Source: Peptostreptococcus russellii
GTDB taxonomy: Bacteria > Bacillota > Clostridia > Peptostreptococcales > Peptostreptococcaceae
Assembly (NCBI RefSeq): GCF_900110295.1
Contig: NZ_FODF01000001.1
Location: forward strand, 62,001 to 126,000
Length of the DNA: 64,000 nt
Direction: 5' to 3'
Shown: positions 5,062 to 62,600 of the stretch, in pieces
Layout of the letters: each line of letters begins with the position of its first letter
Position numbering within the stretch: the stretch's first letter is position 1
Notes under the pieces: model-generated
The model's input: the letters and a program-made list of their open reading frames with translations, nothing else
Databases searched by the model: none
Told to the model about the DNA's origin: nothing
Made by a program: the position numbers and the translations under genes

Positions 5062-5081
5062 CAATAGCAAATGATTTATAA

Positions 5082-5328
5082 AAGCGATGATGAAGAAAAG
5101 TAATATATATTAACCTTCAAGCGAATCGGGTTTGGTGTGAGCCGATAAGGAGCGTATATGTGAATATCACTTCTGAGCAGAAAGCCGAAAGTCTATGACG
5201 ATTAAGCCTACCGGGTGGTTCCGATAGAGACTAAAGAGTGTCTGAATAAGTATTTTTATATTTTTCAGAAACTAGGGTGGTAACGCGATTTTAACTCGTC
5301 CCTTGCATTGCAAGGTGACGAGTTTTTT
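5082..5328 (+). promoter_or_regulatory. T-box riboswitch, isoleucine specifier, controlling ileS
   Basis: This leader RNA senses uncharged tRNA-Ile. Stem I features are present: AGTA at 5099-5102, the apical GGTGTGAGCC at 5134-5143, and a specifier loop GAATATCACTTCTGAGC in which the triplet ATC at 5166-5168 (followed by A) is an isoleucine codon. The T-box core AGGGTGGTAACGCG is at 5274-5287, with UGGU able to pair with the tRNA ACCA end. A rho-independent terminator (5293-5328) follows and would compete with the antiterminator. The next gene is isoleucyl-tRNA synthetase, which agrees with the specifier. Confidence 0.96.
5293..5328 (+). terminator. T-box regulatory terminator of the ileS leader
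   Basis: AACTCGTC (5293-5300) pairs with GACGAGTT (5317-5324), and CCTTGC (5301-5306) pairs with GCAAGG (5310-5315). Six T residues follow. It overlaps the region where the T-box antiterminator would form, so it is a conditional terminator. Confidence 0.93.
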
Positions 5329-5393
5329 ATTTTATCTGGATTTATTTTAATAGCTAGATACTAGAAAATATAATTTTTATAAAGGAGAAAAAT

Positions 5394-11290: not shown

Positions 11291-12481
11291 TTGAAAATAA
11301 GGGCTTTAGAAGTTACGGAATTAAATGAATATGTAAAAAGAATATTAAATGATGATCCTATTCTAAGCAATATAAAGGTTAAGGGTGAAATTTCAAATTT
11401 CAAAATACATTCATCAGGAAATGTGTATTTATCTTTAAAAGATGAAAAATCGAAAATAAATTGCATGATTCATAGAAATAATTTTGATAAAAAATTAGAT
11501 TTGGACAATGGTAAAAAAATAATAGCAGAAGGATATATATCTTCCTATATAAGAGATGGTGTGTATCAATTATATATAAGAAAGATAGAAATAGAGGGAC
11601 AGGGAAGACTTTATTTAGAGTTTTTGAAATTAAAGGAAAAACTTCAAAAGGAAGGTCTTTTCAATTTAGAACATAAAAAAAGTATAAAGAGATTTCCCAA
11701 GGCAATTGGAGTAATAACATCTCCAACAGGTGCAGTAATAAGGGATATTATAAATGTAGTTAAAAGAAGATATCCTAAAATTGATATAAAATTATATCCA
11801 GTCTTGGTACAGGGGGAAAATTCAGCCGATAATCTTGTAGAAGGCTTAGAATTTTTTAATGAAAGTAATAATGTAGATACCATTATAATAGGAAGAGGCG
11901 GTGGATCTCTTGAGGAACTTTGGTCTTTTAATGAAGAAAAGTTAGCTAGAGCCATATTTGCATCTGAAATTCCTGTAATATCAGCCGTTGGTCATGAAAC
12001 AGATTTTACTATATGTGACTTTGTATCTGATATGAGGGCGCCGACTCCATCTGCAGCGGCTGAGATTGCCACACCAAATCTAGAGGATTTGATAGCTACT
12101 CAAAACAATATACTTAGAACTATAGAGAGATATGTAAATAATACTATAGTATATAACAGGCAAAGAATAGATTCTGATCTACATAGATTCAAATTATTCT
12201 ATGAAAGGTCAATGTTTGATGATAGATATATGGAGCTTGACAGATTCAAAGAAAAAATAGATAATTTAATATCTTTGGTAATAAGAGAGGAAAAAGAAAA
12301 ACTTAATATTTTTTCTAAAGGAATGGCAAATTTAAATCCATTTTCAGTTCTTGAAAGAGGATATACTATTGTTGAAAAAAATGGTTTAGCTATTACAAGT
12401 AAAGAAGAAGTTGAGCTTGGGGAAAGGCTGGATCTAATATTAAAAGATGGTAAAATAAAATGTGAAGTTGTTGAAAAATAG
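11291..12481 (+). CDS. xseA: Exodeoxyribonuclease VII large subunit
   Basis: XseA with XseB forms exonuclease VII, a metal-independent nuclease that degrades single-stranded DNA from both ends. The N-terminal OB fold (LEVTELNEYVKRIL, VKGEISNFKIHSSGNVYLSLKD) is followed by the catalytic core with GVITSPTGAVIRDI, IIGRGGGSLEELWSFNEE, ISAVGHETDFT and DMRAPTPSAAAE, then a coiled coil. I place the start at TTG 11291 (396 residues): GGTGGTGA lies at the right distance. The in-frame ATG at 11270 has no binding site and would leave a leader of about nine bases. Confidence 0.95.
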   Translation: MKIRALEVTELNEYVKRILNDDPILSNIKVKGEISNFKIHSSGNVYLSLKDEKSKINCMIHRNNFDKKLDLDNGKKIIAEGYISSYIRDGVYQLYIRKIEIEGQGRLYLEFLKLKEKLQKEGLFNLEHKKSIKRFPKAIGVITSPTGAVIRDIINVVKRRYPKIDIKLYPVLVQGENSADNLVEGLEFFNESNNVDTIIIGRGGGSLEELWSFNEEKLARAIFASEIPVISAVGHETDFTICDFVSDMRAPTPSAAAEIATPNLEDLIATQNNILRTIERYVNNTIVYNRQRIDSDLHRFKLFYERSMFDDRYMELDRFKEKIDNLISLVIREEKEKLNIFSKGMANLNPFSVLERGYTIVEKNGLAITSKEEVELGERLDLILKDGKIKCEVVEK

Positions 12482-12490
12482 GAGATGTTT

Positions 12491-12715
12491 ATGGAAAATA
12501 CAGAAAAAATGGATCTATCCTATGAAGAGGCAATAACTAGGATGGAAGAAATACTAAAAAAGCTTGAAGTAGGAAATAATAAACTTGAAGAGTCGTTAAA
12601 GTTGTATGAAGAGGGTATAAAATTATATAGATACTGTAATGAAGTATTAAATAAGGCGGAACTTAGAGTTACAAAGTTTAACGATGAAAGAGAAGAAATA
12701 GAGGTGGAAATATAG
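12491..12715 (+). CDS. xseB: Exodeoxyribonuclease VII small subunit
   Basis: This 74-residue helical protein matches XseB: the core LSYEEAITRMEEILKKLE and LEESLKLYEEGIKLYRYCN are signature sequences. It binds the coiled coil of XseA. GGAG at 12481-12484, formed at the xseA stop, serves the ATG at 12491; the in-frame ATG at 12485 is too close to it. The stop overlaps the start of ispA by one base, so the genes are translationally coupled. Confidence 0.95.
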   Translation: MENTEKMDLSYEEAITRMEEILKKLEVGNNKLEESLKLYEEGIKLYRYCNEVLNKAELRVTKFNDEREEIEVEI

Positions 12716-13602
12716 TGGATTTTGTTTCAGAACTGAAATCAAAAAGTAAGTTTATAGAAGAAGAAATCAAAAAGTACATGCCCAAAGAAGAAGGATATCA
12801 GAAGTCTGTTTTTGAGGCTATGAATTATAGTCTTAATGCAGGTGGAAAAAGACTAAGACCCATCTTGATTATGGAGTCATATAAAGTTTGTGGTGGACAA
12901 GATGATATGTATTTACCTTTTTCAGCTGCTATTGAAATGATACACACTTATTCTTTGATACACGATGATCTTCCAGCTTTGGATAATGATGATTTGAGAA
13001 GAGGAAAAGCTACAAATCACAAGGTGTTTGGTGAAGCTATGGCTATTCTTGCAGGAGATGCACTTTTGAGTCATGCTTTTGAAACAATGTTGGGTGAAAG
13101 TGTAGATTCTGCATATCCTGAAAGAGGTTTAAAAGCAAGCTATGAAATATCTAAGGCTGCTGGGATATATGGAATGATAGCAGGGCAAGTTGTCGATGTA
13201 GAAAGTGAAGGTATTAAAATCGATAAAGATAAATTAGATTTTATACATAGAAATAAAACAGCGGCTATGATAGTTGCTTGCATGAGAGCTGGAGCAATGC
13301 TTGCAGGAGCAGATAGTGAAAGAGTAGAGGCTCTAACTATATATGGGGAAAAAATAGGATTAGCTTTTCAAATAGTTGATGATATTTTAGACATTGTAGG
13401 AGATGAGGCAACTTTAGGTAAGCATGTTGGTAGTGATATAGAAAATGAAAAGTCTACTTATCCAGCTATATTTGGAATTGATAAGTCATGGGATATAGCA
13501 CAGGGGCTAGTAGATGATGCAAAAAATCAGTTGAAAATTTTTGATAAGAATAATGAGTTTTTATCAGATTTATCAGATTACATAGTAAGAAGAAAATATT
13601 AA
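12715..13602 (+). CDS. ispA: Polyprenyl (farnesyl) diphosphate synthase
   Basis: This enzyme condenses isopentenyl diphosphate units into a C15 (possibly C20) precursor for undecaprenyl phosphate and quinones. Both Asp-rich motifs are present: LIHDDLPALDNDDLRRG (first) and FQIVDDILD (second). The SLNAGGKRLRPIL motif and FGEAMAILAGDALLSHAF are also typical. At 295 residues the length is normal. The GTG start has GAGGTGG upstream and overlaps the xseB stop. dxs, which supplies the MEP pathway, lies two genes downstream. Confidence 0.95.
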   Translation: MDFVSELKSKSKFIEEEIKKYMPKEEGYQKSVFEAMNYSLNAGGKRLRPILIMESYKVCGGQDDMYLPFSAAIEMIHTYSLIHDDLPALDNDDLRRGKATNHKVFGEAMAILAGDALLSHAFETMLGESVDSAYPERGLKASYEISKAAGIYGMIAGQVVDVESEGIKIDKDKLDFIHRNKTAAMIVACMRAGAMLAGADSERVEALTIYGEKIGLAFQIVDDILDIVGDEATLGKHVGSDIENEKSTYPAIFGIDKSWDIAQGLVDDAKNQLKIFDKNNEFLSDLSDYIVRRKY

Positions 13603-26088: not shown

Positions 26089-27321
26089 ATGAATAAAGTA
26101 GAATTACTAGCTCCTGCAGGAGATTTAGAGAGATTAAAAATTGCTTTTGAGTACGGAGCAGATGCAGTATATCTTGGTGGAGAAAACTTTGGTATGAGAA
26201 CAGCTGCAAAGAACTTTAGTATAGAAGATATTAAGGAAGGTGCTGACTTTGCACATGAGAGAGGTAAAAAGATATTTGTAACTGTAAATATAATACCTCA
26301 TAATGAAGATTTTGAAGGTTTTGAAGAATACCTTCTAGATTTGGAAAAGGCTGGAGTTGATGCTCTTATTGCATCAGATCCAGGAGTAATAGATGTAATA
26401 AAAGAAACTATTCCGAATATGGAAATACACCTTAGTACACAGGCAAACACAACAAATTATAAGAGTGCAAATTTCTGGTACAAGCAAGGTGTAAAGAGAG
26501 TTGTTATAGCTAGAGAGCTTTCATTCAAGGAGATAAAGGAAATAAGAGATAATGTTCCTCAGGATCTTGACATAGAAGCCTTTATGCATGGTGCAATGTG
26601 TATATCATATTCAGGAAGATGTCTAATCAGCAATTACATGACTGGAAGAGACGCAAATAGAGGTTCTTGTGCACAATCTTGTAGATGGAAGTATAGTCTT
26701 ATGGAAGAAAAAAGACCTGGTGAATATTTCCCAGTGTATGAAGATGATAGAGGAACTTTCTTCTTCAACTCAAAAGACCTTTGCATGATTGAATATGTAC
26801 CAGAACTTATAGAATCAGGTATAACAAGTTTAAAAATAGAAGGAAGAATGAAGACAGCATATTATGTTGCTACTGTCGTTAGAGCATACAGAATGGCTAT
26901 AGATGAGTATTATAAAGATCCTGAAAATTGGAAGTTTAATCCAATGTGGCTTAAAGAACTAAAAAAAGGTAGTCATAGACACTTTACTACTGGATTTTAC
27001 AATGACAAGCCTGGAACAGAAGAACAGAACTATGCATCTGCGTCATATGTAAGAAATTATGATTTTGTGGGTATAGTTTTAGAAGATGCAGATGAAAATG
27101 GTCTTGTAACAGTAGAACAGAGAAATAAGATGGTTATAGGGGATGAAATAGAAATAATGGGGCCTTATACTGAAACAATGACAACAACAATAACAGAAAT
27201 GTATAATGAAGATGGAGAAGCAATAGAAGCGGCTCCTCATCCAAGACAGATTGTTAAGATGAAGCTTCCTAAGGAAGTAAAGACAAACTTTATGTTGAGA
27301 AAAGCAATAGAAGAAAAATAA
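26089..27321 (+). CDS. trhP: U32 peptidase-like protein, probable tRNA hydroxylation protein TrhP
   Basis: Members of peptidase family U32 next to trmR are needed for prephenate-dependent 5-hydroxylation of tRNA U34. The 410-residue protein starts VELLAPAGDLERLKIAFEYG and carries the U32 signature FMHGAMCISYSGRCLISN (about residues 165-182). The cysteines in GSCAQSCRWKY are probably for an iron-sulfur cluster, and SLKIEGRMK follows. The C-terminal barrel contains VGDEIEIMGP-like sequence. I start at ATG 26089 after AAAGGAG; an in-frame TTG at 26074 overlaps that site. Bacillus has two such genes in a row; here only one. Confidence 0.9.
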   Translation: MNKVELLAPAGDLERLKIAFEYGADAVYLGGENFGMRTAAKNFSIEDIKEGADFAHERGKKIFVTVNIIPHNEDFEGFEEYLLDLEKAGVDALIASDPGVIDVIKETIPNMEIHLSTQANTTNYKSANFWYKQGVKRVVIARELSFKEIKEIRDNVPQDLDIEAFMHGAMCISYSGRCLISNYMTGRDANRGSCAQSCRWKYSLMEEKRPGEYFPVYEDDRGTFFFNSKDLCMIEYVPELIESGITSLKIEGRMKTAYYVATVVRAYRMAIDEYYKDPENWKFNPMWLKELKKGSHRHFTTGFYNDKPGTEEQNYASASYVRNYDFVGIVLEDADENGLVTVEQRNKMVIGDEIEIMGPYTETMTTTITEMYNEDGEAIEAAPHPRQIVKMKLPKEVKTNFMLRKAIEEK

Positions 27322-27327
27322 ATTAAT

Positions 27328-27370
27328 AAAAAGACATTATAATCACGAGATGGTTTATAATGTCTTTTTT
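27328..27370 (+). terminator. Terminator of trmR-trhP
   Basis: AAAAAGACATTATAA pairs with TTATAATGTCTTTTT across an 11-12 base loop, with a run of T. It separates trhP from the pilin-like cluster. Confidence 0.93.
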
Positions 27371-27438: not shown

Positions 27439-27807
27439 TTGAGAAGAAAGGGAAGTATAGGCATGGATGTTATTTTTTCTATTATGCTAACTTTAACGAT
27501 AATAATATTTGTTGAAGCTTCGGTAAAGAATTCAGAAACAATATCCAAAAAAATGGACAATAGGCAGTTTACAAAGAGAATTTTAATAGATGAAGCAGAG
27601 AAAGAAAAAGGTATTATTTCCAGCTATGAAGGAGAGTTAGATAATCTAAGTGAAAAAGTAAGTTACAAAGATGGGAAATATGAAATAGAAAAAAACAGGA
27701 AAGTTTTAGATGCTAGATTTGGATACATACGTAGTCAAATCACAGTAAAAAATAATGCTACGGTAAAAAAGATTAAGGTATACAGTATTTTAGGAGAAGA
27801 TGATTAA
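27439..27807 (+). CDS. Pilin-like small membrane protein 1 of 4
   Basis: This 122-residue protein begins RRKGSIGMDVIFSIMLTLTI: a short basic leader ending in Gly and then a hydrophobic helix, the layout of a type IV pilin signal. Position +5 after the Gly is Asp rather than the usual Glu. The remainder is charged and has no recognised domain. The TTG start is six bases after AAGGAGG, which makes the start firm. It is the first of four adjacent small genes of similar build. I do not recognise the family; it could be a minor pseudopilin or a plain single-helix protein. Confidence 0.65.
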   Translation: MRRKGSIGMDVIFSIMLTLTIIIFVEASVKNSETISKKMDNRQFTKRILIDEAEKEKGIISSYEGELDNLSEKVSYKDGKYEIEKNRKVLDARFGYIRSQITVKNNATVKKIKVYSILGEDD

Positions 27808-28357
27808 TTTGAAAATTATAGTTTTTAAAAAAAGAAAAGCCTACATATCTATGAATATTTTATCATTGTTTATTTTTATCAGTTTAATATTTTCAAGTAT
27901 ATTTTTAATTGAAAAAAACACAGCGAGTTTTCTAAATGAAAATGCAGAGGCAATAAAGGCTGACTATATTTCAGAGCAAGCACTTAAAGTTGTGGAAATA
28001 AATTTTTATAAGGCAATAGAAAATTCTTTTTATGAATCTAGCAATGAAGATGAGTTTTTCTCATTGATGTCTTCTGTTAGTGGAAAAGAGTTTTACAAAG
28101 CAAAGGATATGATTTATTATAGTCTTCCCAATGTAGAAATTGAAATTTTAGGCGAAAATCAAAAAAGCCAGATTTCTGATGACAAAAGATATATGGATTT
28201 TATTATGCAGATAGTATACAAGGATGATAACTATATAAGAAATTATATAAAAAAAGCAAGAGTATTTAATCCATATAAAAAGATTCAAGCAGGAGATAAA
28301 AAACATAAGGATATAAGTTGTGAGGATTTGAAGACACTTTTTAAATATATAAAATAG
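27800..28357 (+). CDS. Pilin-like small membrane protein 2 of 4
   Basis: This is a 185-residue protein with a basic start (FKKRKAYISMN) and one hydrophobic helix (ILSLFIFISLIFSSIFLI), then a polar domain. It resembles ComGG/PilX-type minor pilins in layout, but the Gly and Glu of the prepilin site are Ala and Asn, so processing is doubtful. The ATG at 27800 overlaps the end of the previous gene by eight bases; an in-frame TTG at 27809 is better spaced from AGGAGA and could be the true start. No family is recognised beyond the shared layout. Confidence 0.6.
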   Translation: MINLKIIVFKKRKAYISMNILSLFIFISLIFSSIFLIEKNTASFLNENAEAIKADYISEQALKVVEINFYKAIENSFYESSNEDEFFSLMSSVSGKEFYKAKDMIYYSLPNVEIEILGENQKSQISDDKRYMDFIMQIVYKDDNYIRNYIKKARVFNPYKKIQAGDKKHKDISCEDLKTLFKYIK

Positions 28358-28365
28358 GAGCTAGT

Positions 28366-28848
28366 ATGAAAAGAAAAGGATATACTCTTTTAGAAATGGT
28401 AATTTCAGTTTCCCTTATAGGAATTATAGTTTTAATTTCCATACCTAGATTTAAAAGTAGAAATTTGAAATATGAAGAATTTATATTTGAATTAAAAAGT
28501 GATTTGAGGAATATAGGTTTGGCATCAAATAGTCGAAGAAATATTTATAAAATTGTATTTACAAGTCATGGATATAAAATATATAAGGATTCTAATAAAA
28601 TAAAGTCTAGGAATTGCAAAAAGGGGATGCAAATTTTTAGTATGGAAAATAAAATAATATATTCAAGAAAATCAAGATCAGGTTCTCCTGAAAAAGGAAG
28701 AAGCATCTATGTGCTAGACAATAGTTCAAAAAAAATAGAAAGGATAACGATTATGCTTGCAAGCGGAAGAGTAAAATCTTATTCAGAAGACTATAATAGC
28801 AATGTGATTAATAAAAATAATAAAATAATTATAAAGGATAGAGAATAA
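28366..28848 (+). CDS. Type IV pilin-like protein (prepilin N-methylation motif)
   Basis: This 160-residue protein has a textbook class III signal: MKRKG followed by YTLLEMVISVSLIGIIVLI, with Glu at +5 after the cleavable Gly. It is most like ComGD/GspH-type pseudopilins: a short basic leader, one helix, then a beta-rich domain (DLRNIGLASNSRRN). Prepilin peptidase would cut after Gly5 and methylate Tyr6. GGAGCT precedes the ATG, eight bases after the previous stop. No ATPase, platform protein or peptidase gene occurs in this window. Confidence 0.82.
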   Translation: MKRKGYTLLEMVISVSLIGIIVLISIPRFKSRNLKYEEFIFELKSDLRNIGLASNSRRNIYKIVFTSHGYKIYKDSNKIKSRNCKKGMQIFSMENKIIYSRKSRSGSPEKGRSIYVLDNSSKKIERITIMLASGRVKSYSEDYNSNVINKNNKIIIKDRE

Positions 28849-28905
28849 AAAGTAGATTTAAAATTATAGACAAGATAAAGTTTAAAAGAAAACTGGTGAT
28901 TAACT

Positions 28906-29433
28906 TTGAAAACAAATAGAGGTAGTATTTTTTTAGAAACAGTAATATATATAAATATATCTATAGTTATTTTATTTTTAATATATTCAATAGTGTACCT
29001 TTCTTTGGAAGTATATAGGAAAAATATGGCTATGTGTGAAATGAAAGAGATTTCTGAGGTGGTAGAGGATAGAATAAGATATGAAATTAAAAACTCTATG
29101 GGGATAGATTCTATAAAAACACTTTCTTTGGAAACATCAGATCAAGAATATACTAAAAATGGTTATAGCAAGGTAAGTAAAATATTATATACTTCTAACA
29201 AAATAGATGATATTAAAAATGACAATGTATTAAATTGGGGAGAAAGAAAAAATATATCTATAAAAAGAAATAATATCTATGTTGGAAGGTTAGGTGAATA
29301 CCAAATAGGCAATTATGTGAAAAATCTATATGTAAAAGAAAAAAATATTAACAAAAAAACAGTAATATGCTTTATAATAGTATATAAAATAGAAAAATAT
29401 AAATATGTAAGTAGTTTTTATGTATATATTTAA
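28906..29433 (+). CDS. Pilin-like small membrane protein 4 of 4
   Basis: The 175-residue protein starts KTNRG, then SIFLETVIYINISIVILFL, which fits a prepilin site with Gly at -1 and Glu at +5. The size and charged C-terminal domain resemble ComGF-like minor pseudopilins. The TTG start lies ten bases after a weak CTGGTGA site, so it is probably translated at a low level. No terminator is visible behind it; the rimP promoter begins about 60 bases downstream. Function is inferred only from the signal and the neighbours. Confidence 0.68.
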   Translation: MKTNRGSIFLETVIYINISIVILFLIYSIVYLSLEVYRKNMAMCEMKEISEVVEDRIRYEIKNSMGIDSIKTLSLETSDQEYTKNGYSKVSKILYTSNKIDDIKNDNVLNWGERKNISIKRNNIYVGRLGEYQIGNYVKNLYVKEKNINKKTVICFIIVYKIEKYKYVSSFYVYI

Positions 29434-29493: not shown

Positions 29494-29522
29494 TTGTAAA
29501 AATCTTCAAAAAGTGGTATGAT
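29494..29522 (+). promoter_or_regulatory. Promoter of the rimP-nusA-infB operon
   Basis: TTGTAA (29494-29499) and TATGAT (29517-29522) are 17 bases apart, and TGG before the -10 makes it an extended type. A second TATAAT lies at 29484-29489 without a clear -35. Confidence 0.7.
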
Positions 29523-29547
29523 AATAAAAGAAGATATTTTATGTGGG

Positions 29548-29578
29548 ATGTGAGGCATTATATTGGCTCACATTTTTT
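29548..29578 (+). terminator. Attenuator-like hairpin in the rimP leader
   Basis: ATGTGAG (29548-29554) pairs with CTCACAT (29567-29573) and a T-run follows to 29578. It sits about 20 bases after the likely transcription start, ahead of rimP, so it would act as an attenuator rather than an end-of-gene terminator. A near-copy of the left arm, ATGTGGG at 29541-29547, could pair with the same right arm. Confidence 0.7.
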
Positions 29579-29595
29579 ATGCAAATTTTTTATAA

Positions 29596-29618
29596 GGCTT
29601 GAAGTTATTTTTCAAGCC
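29596..29618 (+). promoter_or_regulatory. Second leader hairpin before rimP
   Basis: GGCTTGAA (29596-29603) and TTCAAGCC (29611-29618) form a perfect 8-bp stem with a 7-base loop. No T-run follows, so it is not a terminator. It lies 20 bases before the rimP ribosome binding site. Confidence 0.55.
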
Positions 29619-29649
29619 ATTTACAATTGAATATATGGAGGTGTTAGTT

Positions 29650-30117
29650 ATGAAAAAAAATACTGCACAGAGAGTTGAAGAACTTGCTCAGCCGATAATT
29701 GATGAGCTGGGATACGAACTGGTAGATGTAGAATTTGTAAAAGAAGCAGGAATGCACTACTTGAGAGTAATACTTGATGATGAGAATGGCATAGGATTAG
29801 ATGAATGCGAAAAAGTGAGTAGATTATTAAGTCCACAACTTGATGAAAAGAACTTTATAGAAGAAAATTACTTTTTAGAAGTATGTTCACCAGGAATTGA
29901 TAGGGTGTTAAAGAGAGATAAGGAATTTTCAAAGTATGCTGGAAAGCAAGTGGATGTTAAATTATATAAAAATGATGAAGAACTAAAGACTAAACAATTC
30001 GAAGCCACTTTATCAGGTTTAGATGAAGATGGGAATGTAGTCTTATTAGTAGATGGAAACGAAAAGAAATTAACTAGAAAAGAAATAGCACAGATACGTC
30101 TGTCAGTTGTATTTTAA
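29650..30117 (+). CDS. rimP: Ribosome maturation factor RimP
   Basis: RimP binds the 30S subunit and helps late assembly around S12. The 155-residue protein contains LAQPIIDELGYELVDVEFVKE near the N-terminus, LRVILDDENGIGLDECEKVSR, and LEVCSPGIDRVLKRDKEF, which are the family signatures; the C-terminal Sm-like domain follows. GGAGGTG precedes ATG 29650. An in-frame upstream TTG would read through the leader hairpin and is rejected. It is first in the rimP-nusA-ylxR-ylxQ-infB-rbfA operon. Confidence 0.96.
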   Translation: MKKNTAQRVEELAQPIIDELGYELVDVEFVKEAGMHYLRVILDDENGIGLDECEKVSRLLSPQLDEKNFIEENYFLEVCSPGIDRVLKRDKEFSKYAGKQVDVKLYKNDEELKTKQFEATLSGLDEDGNVVLLVDGNEKKLTRKEIAQIRLSVVF

Positions 30118-59642: not shown

Positions 59643-62600
59643 ATGTATTTAAAAAAGCTATCATTAAAGGGATTTAAGTCCTTTCCGATAAAAACAGAGA
59701 TATTCTTTGAACAAGGAATTACTGCGATAGTGGGTCCGAATGGTAGTGGAAAAAGTAATATTTCAGATGCTATAAGATGGGTTCTTGGAGAACAAAGCAT
59801 AAAAAGTCTAAGAGGAGAAAAGATGGAAGATGTAATATTCTCTGGAACAGATAGCAAGAAACAACTGAACTACTGTGAAGTATCCTTGACATTAGATAAT
59901 ACACTTGGAGAAATAGATCTAGATTCAGATGAGATGATTGTAAAGAGAAGAGCTTACAGAACAGGAGAATCTGAATACTTTATAAATGGGAAGGCTTGTA
60001 GATTAAGAGATGTAAAAGAAACTCTTATGGATACAGGTATAGGTAAAGATGGATATTCGATTATAGAGCAGGGAAAGGTAGAAGAAATTTTAAGTAACAA
60101 TCCAGTCAATAGGAGAAAAGTATTTGATGAAGCTTGTGGAATAGCTAAATACAGATATAGAAAAAATGAGGCTGAGAAAAATCTTAAAAAGAGTAGTGAA
60201 AATCTATCTAGAATAGTCGATATATTTACAGAAATAGAAAAACAGATTGGACCACTGGAAAAACAACAGGAAAAGGCTAAGAAGTATTTAAAAATAAGTG
60301 AAGAATTAAAAAAGTTTGAAGTAAATGATATTATTAAGCAAAATGAAGACTATGAAAATGCAATAAATGACTTAGTTTTTCAAACTAATGAAGTAACTAA
60401 GGAAATAGAAGTATTGGAAAAGGAAAAGGTTGAATTAGAAAAGGAAATTTCGGAATTAGAAAAAGACATAAATTCTATAGAGATATATACAGATAAGTTA
60501 AATTCTGAAATGATGGAGCTCAATAATTTAATTAATAGTAATAAGACAGATGCTGAAATAACAGCTGAAAAAATTAAAAATAACAAGCAAGAAATTGATA
60601 GAAAAAAAGAAGAAACAGAGATATTAAAGAAAAAGTTGCTCCTAGCAAATAGAGAGTTTAAAAAAGCTAATGATAAAACTAATGAAAATTCATATATAAT
60701 AGAAGAATATGAAAAACAGCTTGGAAATAGTTTTGAGAACAAAAGAAATACGGAATTAAAATTAAATGAAATAAATAAAGAAATAGACGAAAATAAAGAA
60801 AAATCTGTTGAAATTCTTAAAAACAGAGAAGATATTTCAAATAGTATTACAAAACTTACTGCTAATATTGAAAATATGATGACTAAAAAGTCGGAAATAG
60901 AAGGAAATATATCCTCTATTAAAAATTCTATAATCAAATTAGAAAATGAAATATCAGATAAGAAACAAAAAGAAGAAAAACTTATAGAAGAAATTGATAA
61001 AGAAGAAAAGAAAGTAATTTCATTTAATGAAAAAATAGAGAGAATAAATACAGATGCAGCAAGATTTAATGAAAACTATCAAAAACACAATATGCAGATA
61101 GGTTCATTAAATGCCAAGAGAAATACCTACATGGATATGGAAAATCATCATGAAGGATTTAATAGAGGTGTTAGGGAAATTCTTAAAAATAAAAATATCG
61201 AAGGCATACACGGTGCATTTGGAGAGCTTATAAAAGTTCCTCAAAAATATGAAAAGGCAATAGAAGCATCATTAGGTGCTGCTATCCAAAATGTTGTAGT
61301 AGAAAATGAAAATATAGCTAAAGAGTCTATTTCTTATTTGAAAAAGAATAATTTAGGAAGAGTTACCTTCTTGCCGATGAATATAATCAAGGCTACTAGA
61401 TTTGATGTAAAAACAATGAAATCTACTGTAAAAGCAATAGGAATTGCTTCTGAACTTGTGAATTTTGATAATAGGTATAAGAATATAGTAGATAATCTTT
61501 TAGGAAGAGTAGTTGTAATAGAAAATATAGATCAAGCTATTTTATTTGCAAAAGATACACAGCATAGATATAAAATAGTAACTTTAGAAGGAGAGATACT
61601 AAACCCTGGCGGTTCAATGACCGGAGGAAGCCTAAAGTCTAGCGGTAATATTCTTTCAAGAAAGAGAATAATAGATGAGTTAGCAGAGGAAATAAATCAG
61701 AAAACTGTAATATTGAAGGATATGCTGATTTCAATAGAAGATTTAAAAACATCAAAGCAGAATACTAAGATTGATAGAGAAAAAAGCTTTAATAATAAAG
61801 CTCAACTTGAAAAAGAAAGAATAACTATTAATACCGAACTAAAAATGCTTGTTGAATCTCTTGAAAAAAGCAAGAATAGTTTATCGAAAAGCAAGAGCTT
61901 AATAGAAAATACAGATGAAGATATAGCAAAAAGTAAGCAAGTATGTGATCTTCATAAGGAAAAACTAAAAGAACTTGAAACTAAGGAAGGTGAGAAAGAA
62001 TCTAACTTAGAGCTTCTTTTAGAAAAAAAACTTAAATTAAAGGGTGAGTATGAAGAAGCAGTTAGAACTTATAATGATAAAAATCTTGAACTTACAAGAT
62101 TAAAGGCTTCTTTTGAAAATGAACTTACAGAGCTAGAAAGAATATCTTCAGAAATAAAGGATGGAAATAAAAAGATAGAAGATATTTCCAAAACAATAGA
62201 AGAAAAGAAAAAAGAGCTAGAAATACTTGCTGAATTAGAAGAAAAGTATAAGTTAGAAATAGAAGAAAATAGCAAAAAATATTCTCTTCTAGAAGAAAAG
62301 ATGAAAGAAAAGAAAGAAAGTAAAGAAGTTATAAAAGAAAAGTTTGAAGAAAAGAAGTCTATTTTAAGGAATAAGGATAGAAAACTTTTAGAAAGCAATG
62401 AAGAAAAGTTTAAATTGGATTCAAAATTAGAAAGAAATAAAAATTCCAGGGATAACTTGCTTTCTAATCTTTTTGAAAAGTACGAATTAACATATGTTCA
62501 AGCTTTGGAGTTTAAAGACACTACTATAAGTATAGATCGAAAAAGAATAGAAAAACTGAAAAGAGCTATAAAGGAGTTAGGAAATGTCAATATAGATTCC

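Follow-up and report, generated by a model that had tools for sequence, protein, structure and literature searches.

The ComG competence pilus has a dedicated motor without PilT, and in Bacilli the comG genes are syntenic with aroK and efp. Among the core minor pilins of type IVa pili and type II secretion systems (T2SS), named H, I, J and K, the K subunit caps the complex and the order at the tip is H-J-I-K, according to the available excerpt of PMC10790768. Here we analysed 64,000 nucleotides of Peptostreptococcus russellii DNA (positions 62,001 to 126,000 of contig NZ_FODF01000001.1, hereafter the window), in which four consecutive genes at 27439-29433, g1 to g4, encode small pilin-like proteins. 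The block is typed as I-K-H-J, and with good probability it codes for the core set of four minor pilins of the one type IVa-like pilus that the genome encodes; we do not rate this higher because the peptidase and the motor models fall below curated cut-offs. A second subject is the leader of the g3 orthologue, which is split in most relatives. Throughout, L-numbers denote the genome stretches compared, G-numbers genomes, and C-numbers contigs of the window's own assembly (2.13 Mb in 58 contigs).

Four minor pilin genes, probably in the order I-K-H-J

Four co-directional prepilin-like open reading frames (ORFs) had been predicted between trhP and rimP, and both the ORF calls and the N-termini bear them out, so that the observation of the block is confirmed. 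On the plus strand, g1 (27439-27807, 122 amino acids, TTG start) overlaps g2 (27800-28357, 185 amino acids); g3 (28366-28848, 160 amino acids) follows after 8 bases and g4 (28906-29433, 175 amino acids, TTG start) after a further 57. Because of this close spacing and overlap, a single transcript for g1-g4 is likely. All four proteins carry a basic leader, Gly or Ala at -1 and a hydrophobic stretch, and g3 alone passes the Pfam N_methyl cut-off. The prepilin sites, written here with a slash between -1 and +1, are as first read: g3, with an in-frame canonical leader (MKRKG/YTLLE), and g4 (G/SIFLE) have full sites, g1 has Asp at +5 (G/SIGMD), and g2 has Asn at +5 and Ala at -1 (A/YISMN).

These ORFs are not a product of chance. 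Their order is kept in eight Peptostreptococcus congeners, 69 of the 71 genomes in the family have a g4 match (E up to 0.01), and the ratio of nonsynonymous to synonymous substitution rates (dN/dS) between P. porci and P. sp. D1 was 0.15 for g1, 0.14 for g2, 0.14 for g3 and 0.08 for g4. That the genes evolve fast was also correctly foreseen: g1-g4 share 21-38% identity with their counterparts in five congeners, as against 83-86% for TrhP, which groups with those of the five species at 100/100 support, and 70-75% for RimP, a range taken from two loci.

The order I-K-H-J is based on NCBIfam and Pfam profiles, family hidden Markov models (HMMs, each built from 33-36 family sequences), gene order and the predicted fold of g4. 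Profile searches with the window proteins gave mostly noise, except for N_methyl and pilin models with g3; Pfam searches with the alignments A1-A4 gave, beyond ComGE in A1, just N_methyl and noise. The g3 protein is H-type (GspH/FimU/ComGD-like), matching NCBIfam ComGD at 7.3e-10, under the cut-off, and taking the H position by HMM. In a PDB sequence search, A3 matched pilins across the N-terminal region and A4 matched nothing. The g4 protein is J-type (GspJ/PilW/ComGF-like). Its AlphaFold model, with a predicted local distance difference test score (pLDDT) of 83.1, consists of a long helix and a beta sheet, and when it was compared with 996 chains by VIA, rows 1-9 had Z scores of 11.2-9.8 and root-mean-square deviations (rmsd) of 2.6-6.5 Å over 111-149 residues. 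The top row was Thermus TTHA1219 (Z 11.2, rmsd 2.6 Å over 116 residues), followed by XcpW and chains of EpsI:EpsJ entries (Z 10.6-9.8), the latter taken as GspJ proteins by their chain length; the Streptococcus sanguinis minor pilin PilB appeared further down at Z 7.9, and the first unrelated row was at Z 5.1. The g4 orthologue of Tepidibacter (L231) also matched ComGF at 1.8e-5.

For g1 and g2 the typing draws on relatives. Searches of Pfam and NCBIfam gave no match for g1 of its own; in its alignment two of nine members matched Pfam ComGE (best 0.0047), and the L231 orthologue matched NCBIfam ComGE (6.5e-9) and PilV (4.9e-8), both under cut-off. Together with its position and its HMM, which selects the I position in L240, L246, L247, L252 and L260, these matches suggest that g1 is I-type (GspI/PilV/ComGE-like). 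Position, HMM and the missing Glu5 point to g2 as K-type (GspK/PilX/ComGG-like): its HMM selects the last pilin in L240, L246 and L247 and the second in L260, and none of 36 members has Glu at +5, as expected of a K subunit capping the complex. The AlphaFold model of g2 (pLDDT 83.5) has a 76-residue helix (residues 4-79) and a small domain.

The HMMs were also applied at class level, where the efp neighbourhood was inspected in 40 of 118 genomes. Type IV pilus genes with a pilM match lie 5' of aroK and/or efp in seven stretches (L240, L246, L247, L252, L257, L260 and L264), and pilB, pilT and pilC were all observed in the first five. A comG-like pilB-pilC-pilin run is found in L256, L266 and L273, and pilB with pilD only in L271 and L274. 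In the operons of L240 and L246 (pilB-pilT-pilC-pilin-pilD-HIJK-pilM) the g1-g4 HMMs assign the pilins as H-I-J-K. The assignment is H-I-J-K with a tie at J in L247, H, I and J with K unassigned in L252, and I-K-J-H in L260; L253 has H, I, J and a weakly assigned K, and no motor gene was noticed there; L238 has I and K before pepP-efp.

Residue +5 follows the types. At this position g3 has Glu in 33/33 sequences; g4 has Glu in all 27 from other genera and Asn, Asn and Gln in three of nine Peptostreptococcus; and g1 has Glu in 24 of 25 others and Asp in eight of nine Peptostreptococcus, a replacement that preserves the charge. In pneumococcus, the E5A change does harm in ComGD and ComGE, ComGF tolerates it, and ComGG has no E5 (PMC8727766, in the part available). 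The pattern seen here, kept in H, partly lost in J and absent from K, fits these genetics by analogy.

A probable pilus gene set scattered over three loci

The block had been called an orphan cluster without assembly machinery. This was mistaken or overstated: C13 and C15 carry type IV pilus genes, namely pilB, pilC, pilT, one for a major pilin and one for a probable prepilin peptidase. The genome thus does not show the lack of type IV pilus genes that had been named as a refutation. On C13, pilB, pilC and the major pilin are consecutive (L004 6752-9778) at the lon-engB locus; PilB matches T2SSE at 7e-98, PilC matches T2SSF at 6e-51, and the pilin passes the N_methyl cut-off. Two further ORFs (589 and 177 amino acids) follow the major pilin at the place expected for pilMN and pilO. 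On C15, pilT and an A24-type peptidase candidate (L005 6145-8030) lie between prs and pth-mfd (the neighbours of both loci were named by eye), and PilT scores 351.8 bits with pilT_fam, over the NCBIfam cut-off of 319.1. The C15 site is the one that holds the complete primary type IV pilus cluster in C. difficile (L160). A link of the block to that prs-linked cluster was considered and dropped, since the P. russellii genome lacks its motor, pilT aside.

The absence of ATPase and platform genes from the window itself had been rightly noted: the PF00437 and PF00482 matches of the genome fall on other contigs, PF00437 on C13 and C15 with a sub-cut-off match on C33, and PF00482 on C13 only, in a single platform gene. 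Nine Peptostreptococcus genomes have two PF00482 matches each, and among the matches listed for both members of a pair these are two domains of one gene; the second match of G057 lies outside those listed. In a midpoint-rooted PilC tree (2 of 17 inner branches starred) the P. russellii PilC groups with other lon-linked PilCs, at 100/99 inside the genus and 96/93 with the C. difficile secondary PilC and others.

Motor and block occur together through the family: PilC is found in 70 of 71 genomes, both PilC and g4 in 68, and PilT over its cut-off in 68. G037, which lacks g4, has PilT below cut-off and a T2SSF match of 2.2e-8, over the cut-off yet far weaker than in the others, all of which reach 1e-22 or better. 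G048 has a completeness of 75%; G085 has no PilC, but its assembly is in 420 contigs. Thus a type IV pilus gene set can be spread over three loci and still be retained as a whole in one genome. We regard the genes, their types, their conservation and the presence of the machinery as shown by these data, and the interpretation originally offered as partly supported.

We infer from these data the following working model. The C15 peptidase would cut the leaders of g1-g4, after which g3, g4, g1 and g2 may come together in the membrane as a complex in the order H-J-I-K, with g2, the K subunit without Glu5, as its cap. This complex would prime the polymerisation of the C13 major pilin driven by PilB and PilC and remain at the tip, and PilT would retract the filament. 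The task of the pilus could be adhesion, twitching or DNA uptake. The supposed orphan cluster thereby becomes the likely tip of a real pilus.

Several results weigh against this model. Block and motor have no direct link, their genes lying at three unlinked loci. The A24 match of the C15 peptidase candidate (1.8e-4, 22.4 bits) is below the Pfam cut-off of 26.5 and no NCBIfam model matched it; PilB and PilC are under the cut-offs of the NCBIfam assembly models they matched, ComG models included; the 589- and 177-residue PilM/PilN/PilO candidates match no pilus profile; and PilT of Peptostreptococcus G057, the third genome under the PilT cut-off, reaches 281.4 bits. For g2 there was no profile match in Pfam, NCBIfam or alignment searches and no clear fold match (no VIA row over Z 5.7, no Foldseek hit at E<0.001), and Foldseek with the g4 model likewise gave none at E<0.001. 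HMM assignments were partial, mixed or weak in L256, L257, L264, L266 and L273. Asp at +5 in g1 and Ala at -1 in g2 make cleavage and packing less certain, and g2 and g4 of G057 and g1 of P. faecalis have no ATG, GTG or TTG 3-26 codons before the site. In P. faecalis g1 (L007 6404-6784) the sole start candidate noticed is an ATA plausibly spaced from a GGAGG.

The block could instead be the minor half of a ComG-type competence pseudopilus, apart from any retractile pilus, given that g3 is ComGD-like, that orthologues of g1 and g4 are ComGE-like and ComGF-like, and that genes for a ComEA-like protein (L321, 240 amino acids) and a ComEC-like protein (L156, 422 amino acids) are in the genome. The curated cut-offs do not settle the name of the motor: ComGA (256.2 of 300 bits), ComGB (146.1 of 240) and ComGD (39.4 of 70) are all under theirs, but so are the PilB model (335.7 against 675.65 bits), no closer to its cut-off than ComGA, and the GspE model, so that NCBIfam cut-offs alone cannot decide. 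What speaks against a competence pseudopilus is the lack of a second motor, for with one platform gene and one clear ATPase besides PilT there is none to drive it, and the presence of PilT over its cut-off; moreover, a ComEA-size ORF (224 amino acids, HHH_3) is found in G037 too, a genome without the block. We therefore consider this reading improbable. The original prediction had compared the block with the ComGD-GE-GF-GG part of a competence pilus, split from its motor: the minor pilin set apart from its motor is upheld, and the name of a ComG competence pilus is made less likely by PilT. The ComEA-like and ComEC-like genes would allow DNA uptake by the pilus. ComEA and ComEC were dropped as evidence of competence, ComEC being present in 18/18 genomes tried and HHH_3 in 71/71, G037 included; the best HHH_3 match is usually a 700-residue ORF, presumably Tex, and the ComEA-size ORF ranks second. 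The ComEC-like channel protein is only 422 amino acids long (L156 8426-9694, on C30), and 2.7 kb away a separate secreted ORF (12414-13241) resembles, as we assume, the nuclease-like domain of ComEC.

A short T2SS-like pseudopilus exporting a protein would accord with the description of C. difficile PilA2, PilX and PilA3 as a possible T2SS analogue in the accessible text of PMC9556784, PilX and PilA3 being, by our inference, genes of this block type. Against it, the sole motor found is accompanied by PilT, and no candidate export substrate was noticed, in an analysis that included no search aimed at substrates; we hold it to be highly improbable. Decay would explain the Asp and Asn at +5 in g1 and g2, the Asn or Gln in three g4 proteins of the genus, the low identity between congeners and the lack of a standard start close to the site, seen in three genes from two congeners, all as loss of function. 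Yet dN/dS is 0.08-0.15 between two close species, all four frames are open in 9/9 Peptostreptococcus examined, K subunits normally lack Glu5 and the Asp of g1 is common to eight of nine members of the genus, and a decaying remnant seems to us scarcely credible. A minor pilin set serving the one pilus of the genome thus remains our preferred reading.

A split leader in the H pilin of relatives

Leader and body of the H pilin (the g3 orthologue) are two bases out of frame with each other in 56 of 69 genomes, which represent 19 of 22 genera and include C. difficile, and a stop codon stands at the junction. The loci are L014 (C. difficile), L158, L159, L171, L209-L220, L224-L233, L281-L298, L300-L315 (L299 excluded), L319 and L320. 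The junction is conserved across genera. The leader starts with ATG (42), TTG (11) or GTG (3) and continues for three codons to a Gly codon, which is GGA in 53 genomes and GGC, GGT and GGG in one each. The next codon is ATG (51) or GTG (5), followed by the stop TGA (53) or TAA (3), and the body begins two bases past the Gly codon with GTG (53) or GTA (3), Glu5 being in register. With the start read as Met, the leader peptides are MKREG (31), MKKEG (12), MDNKG (7) and five rarer forms (6). All 51 ATG junctions land on GTG, and all three GTA landings come after GTG, in three genera (numbered g19, g21 and g22 in our set); these cases may share ancestry. Elsewhere in the bodies GTG accounts for 78 of 692 Val codons. 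A Shine-Dalgarno-like run, by a loose pattern, precedes the leader start by 5-11 nucleotides in 55 of 56.

Within the block the split is peculiar to this gene. The same test gave 0/32 for g1, 0/34 for g2 and 0/34 for g4 versus 22/31 for g3, and outside the family eight of nine H-type genes are unsplit, with an in-frame start no more than 13 codons away. In the ninth, L247 (oriented 5250-5330), the only in-frame start is a TTG 26 codons off, and another frame holds a stretch that opens with ATG and ends in Gly, with no stop at the junction; this may be a split of a second type or an artefact. The split is absent from all nine Peptostreptococcus examined, the window included, and from G050, G052, G053 and G054. 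In G050 the g3 gene (L221, L316) has neither a canonical leader nor the split, and the other two genomes of its genus (g11) are split. Because Peptostreptococcus is nested in the TrhP tree among the split lineages Tepidibacter, Alkalithermobacter, Romboutsia and Clostridioides, it has probably lost the split; the tree is midpoint-rooted and has some open forks.

On the pattern at the junction, we lean towards the view that most of the family makes its H pilin by a programmed +2 frameshift at a shifty stop, and hold this with moderate confidence. The ribosome would read the five-codon leader ending in Gly and one further codon (AUG or GUG), and meet UGA or UAA; the P-site tRNA would then shift two bases downstream and re-pair with the overlapping GUG or GUA. 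In the slip from GTG to GTA, a Val tRNA can read both positions. The product would be a canonical prepilin, leader-Gly/Met or Val-x-x-x-Glu5. Such a shift would limit how much H subunit, which forms the base of the tip complex, is made, and the start of pili could in this way depend on the supply of release factor.

The rival is termination at the stop followed by reinitiation at GUG, which would yield a leaderless "mature" pilin in 53 of 56 genomes. In the other three the codon is GUA, not a start codon, and that Gly is retained while its codon varies synonymously suggests that the leader serves as one. Other explanations were rejected. Sequencing error is countered by the agreement of 56 genomes, and a pseudogene by purifying selection on the split bodies, for which 16 chosen pairs gave dN/dS of 0.06-0.26. 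A start lying upstream in frame, which would place Asn at -1, would require an ATG, GTG or TTG 3-26 codons before the site, and 44 of 62 split loci (duplicates included) have none; as for a Shine-Dalgarno that would serve the GTG as a start, the purine run lies only 2 nucleotides from it. There is no homopolymer run at the junction for transcript slippage, and after a -1 slip Glu would fall at +6. RNA structure 3' of the junction is weak, with a mean z of -0.83 against plain shuffles and values below -2 in 10 of 56.

If the split is programmed, a chromosomal gene of bacteria would use a conserved +2 shift, and cells would have a new means of setting the number of pili they start; Peptostreptococcus offers a natural control without the split. 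The feature would surprise specialists in translation and in pili alike. In the literature, titles and the beginnings of abstracts gave no account of a split leader or of a Peptostreptococcus pilus, which is weak evidence of novelty, as catalogues of C. difficile pilins fall outside this material. No pilin recoding case is described in the accessible parts of PMC3711429, PMC5009743 and PMC3244431. Nor did any title retrieved concern the comG-aroK-efp synteny of Bacilli. A +2 shift as such is not new, since the title of Weiss et al. 1987, as referenced in the available text of PMC5009743, names +2 among its shifts.

Genomic surroundings and comparison with known systems

The block lies between trhP (26089-27321, plus strand, Pfam U32, a U32 family member) and rimP (29650-30117, plus strand), the next gene after g4. 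Conservation of this setting had been proposed as a check, and it holds in part: the block adjoins trhP in seven of eight congeners (L007-L010, L206-L208), with two extra ORFs in between in L206 and trhP on the opposite strand in L207, and rimP adjoins it in some species only, not in P. porci or P. sp. D1. In Peptostreptococcus sp. MV1 (L157) the block (168-2341) is on a 3.6 kb contig beside an unrelated ORF, and its adjacency to trhP and rimP cannot be judged. Across 26 loci of other genera, efp is 3' of the block in 23, either next to it or with aroK and other genes in between, and aroE lies within 600 bases 5' of it in 18; the order in C. difficile is trhP, penicillin-binding protein, sigma factor, block, efp, and in L220 trhP is directly 5' of aroE. 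No aro gene adjoins the block beside trhP in Peptostreptococcus, and the simplest history would be that the genes between trhP and the block were deleted there. A trhP terminator at about 27331-27370 was spotted by eye; the terminator scan, whose rule requires three G-C pairs, has no entry for it. Upstream of rimP, 29494-29650 contains a promoter-like site followed by a pair of strong hairpins, of which the first has a T run (fold z -3.68), possibly an attenuator of the rimP-nusA operon. A T-box leader lies at 5078-5306 of the window (Rfam RF00230, 128 bits).

Taken alone, the block belongs to a familiar kind, and its layout is unusual. As with H-I-J-K of type IVa pili and T2SS (GspH-I-J-K), four pilins stand in a row, H is ComGD/GspH-like, I is ComGE/PilV-like in an orthologue, J has the GspJ fold and K lacks Glu5. 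It differs in its order, I-K-H-J, in being unlinked to pilB and pilC, and in having an I pilin with Asp rather than Glu at +5 in eight of nine Peptostreptococcus. With the ComGD-ComGE-ComGF-ComGG set of the competence pilus it shares four homologous types, whereas this genome has PilT over its cut-off, ComGA, ComGB and ComGD below theirs, and its motor genes elsewhere.

The nearest counterpart is in C. difficile, where the pilin cluster 5' of efp (L014, L212) has the same four types in the same order and the "secondary" pilB2-pilC2-pilA2 locus (L161) has a lon-linked motor that joins that of P. russellii in the PilC tree. This secondary locus has one pilin, no minor pilin gene having been noticed in it, and it gains in the block a conserved candidate partner set. 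C. difficile differs in that its prs-pth-mfd site holds a full primary cluster, minor pilins among its genes (L160), whereas P. russellii has only pilT and the peptidase candidate there, and in the split leader of its g3. For that leader the closest comparison is the +1 shifty stop of prfB (release factor 2), whose features are taken from the accessible text of PMC5009743. In both, the stop is mostly followed by C, a purine-rich Shine-Dalgarno-like run lies upstream and P-site re-pairing is proposed; the split leader differs in a net shift of +2 rather than +1, in its place after a five-codon leader in a pilin gene, and in having UAA as the stop in 3 of 56 genomes.

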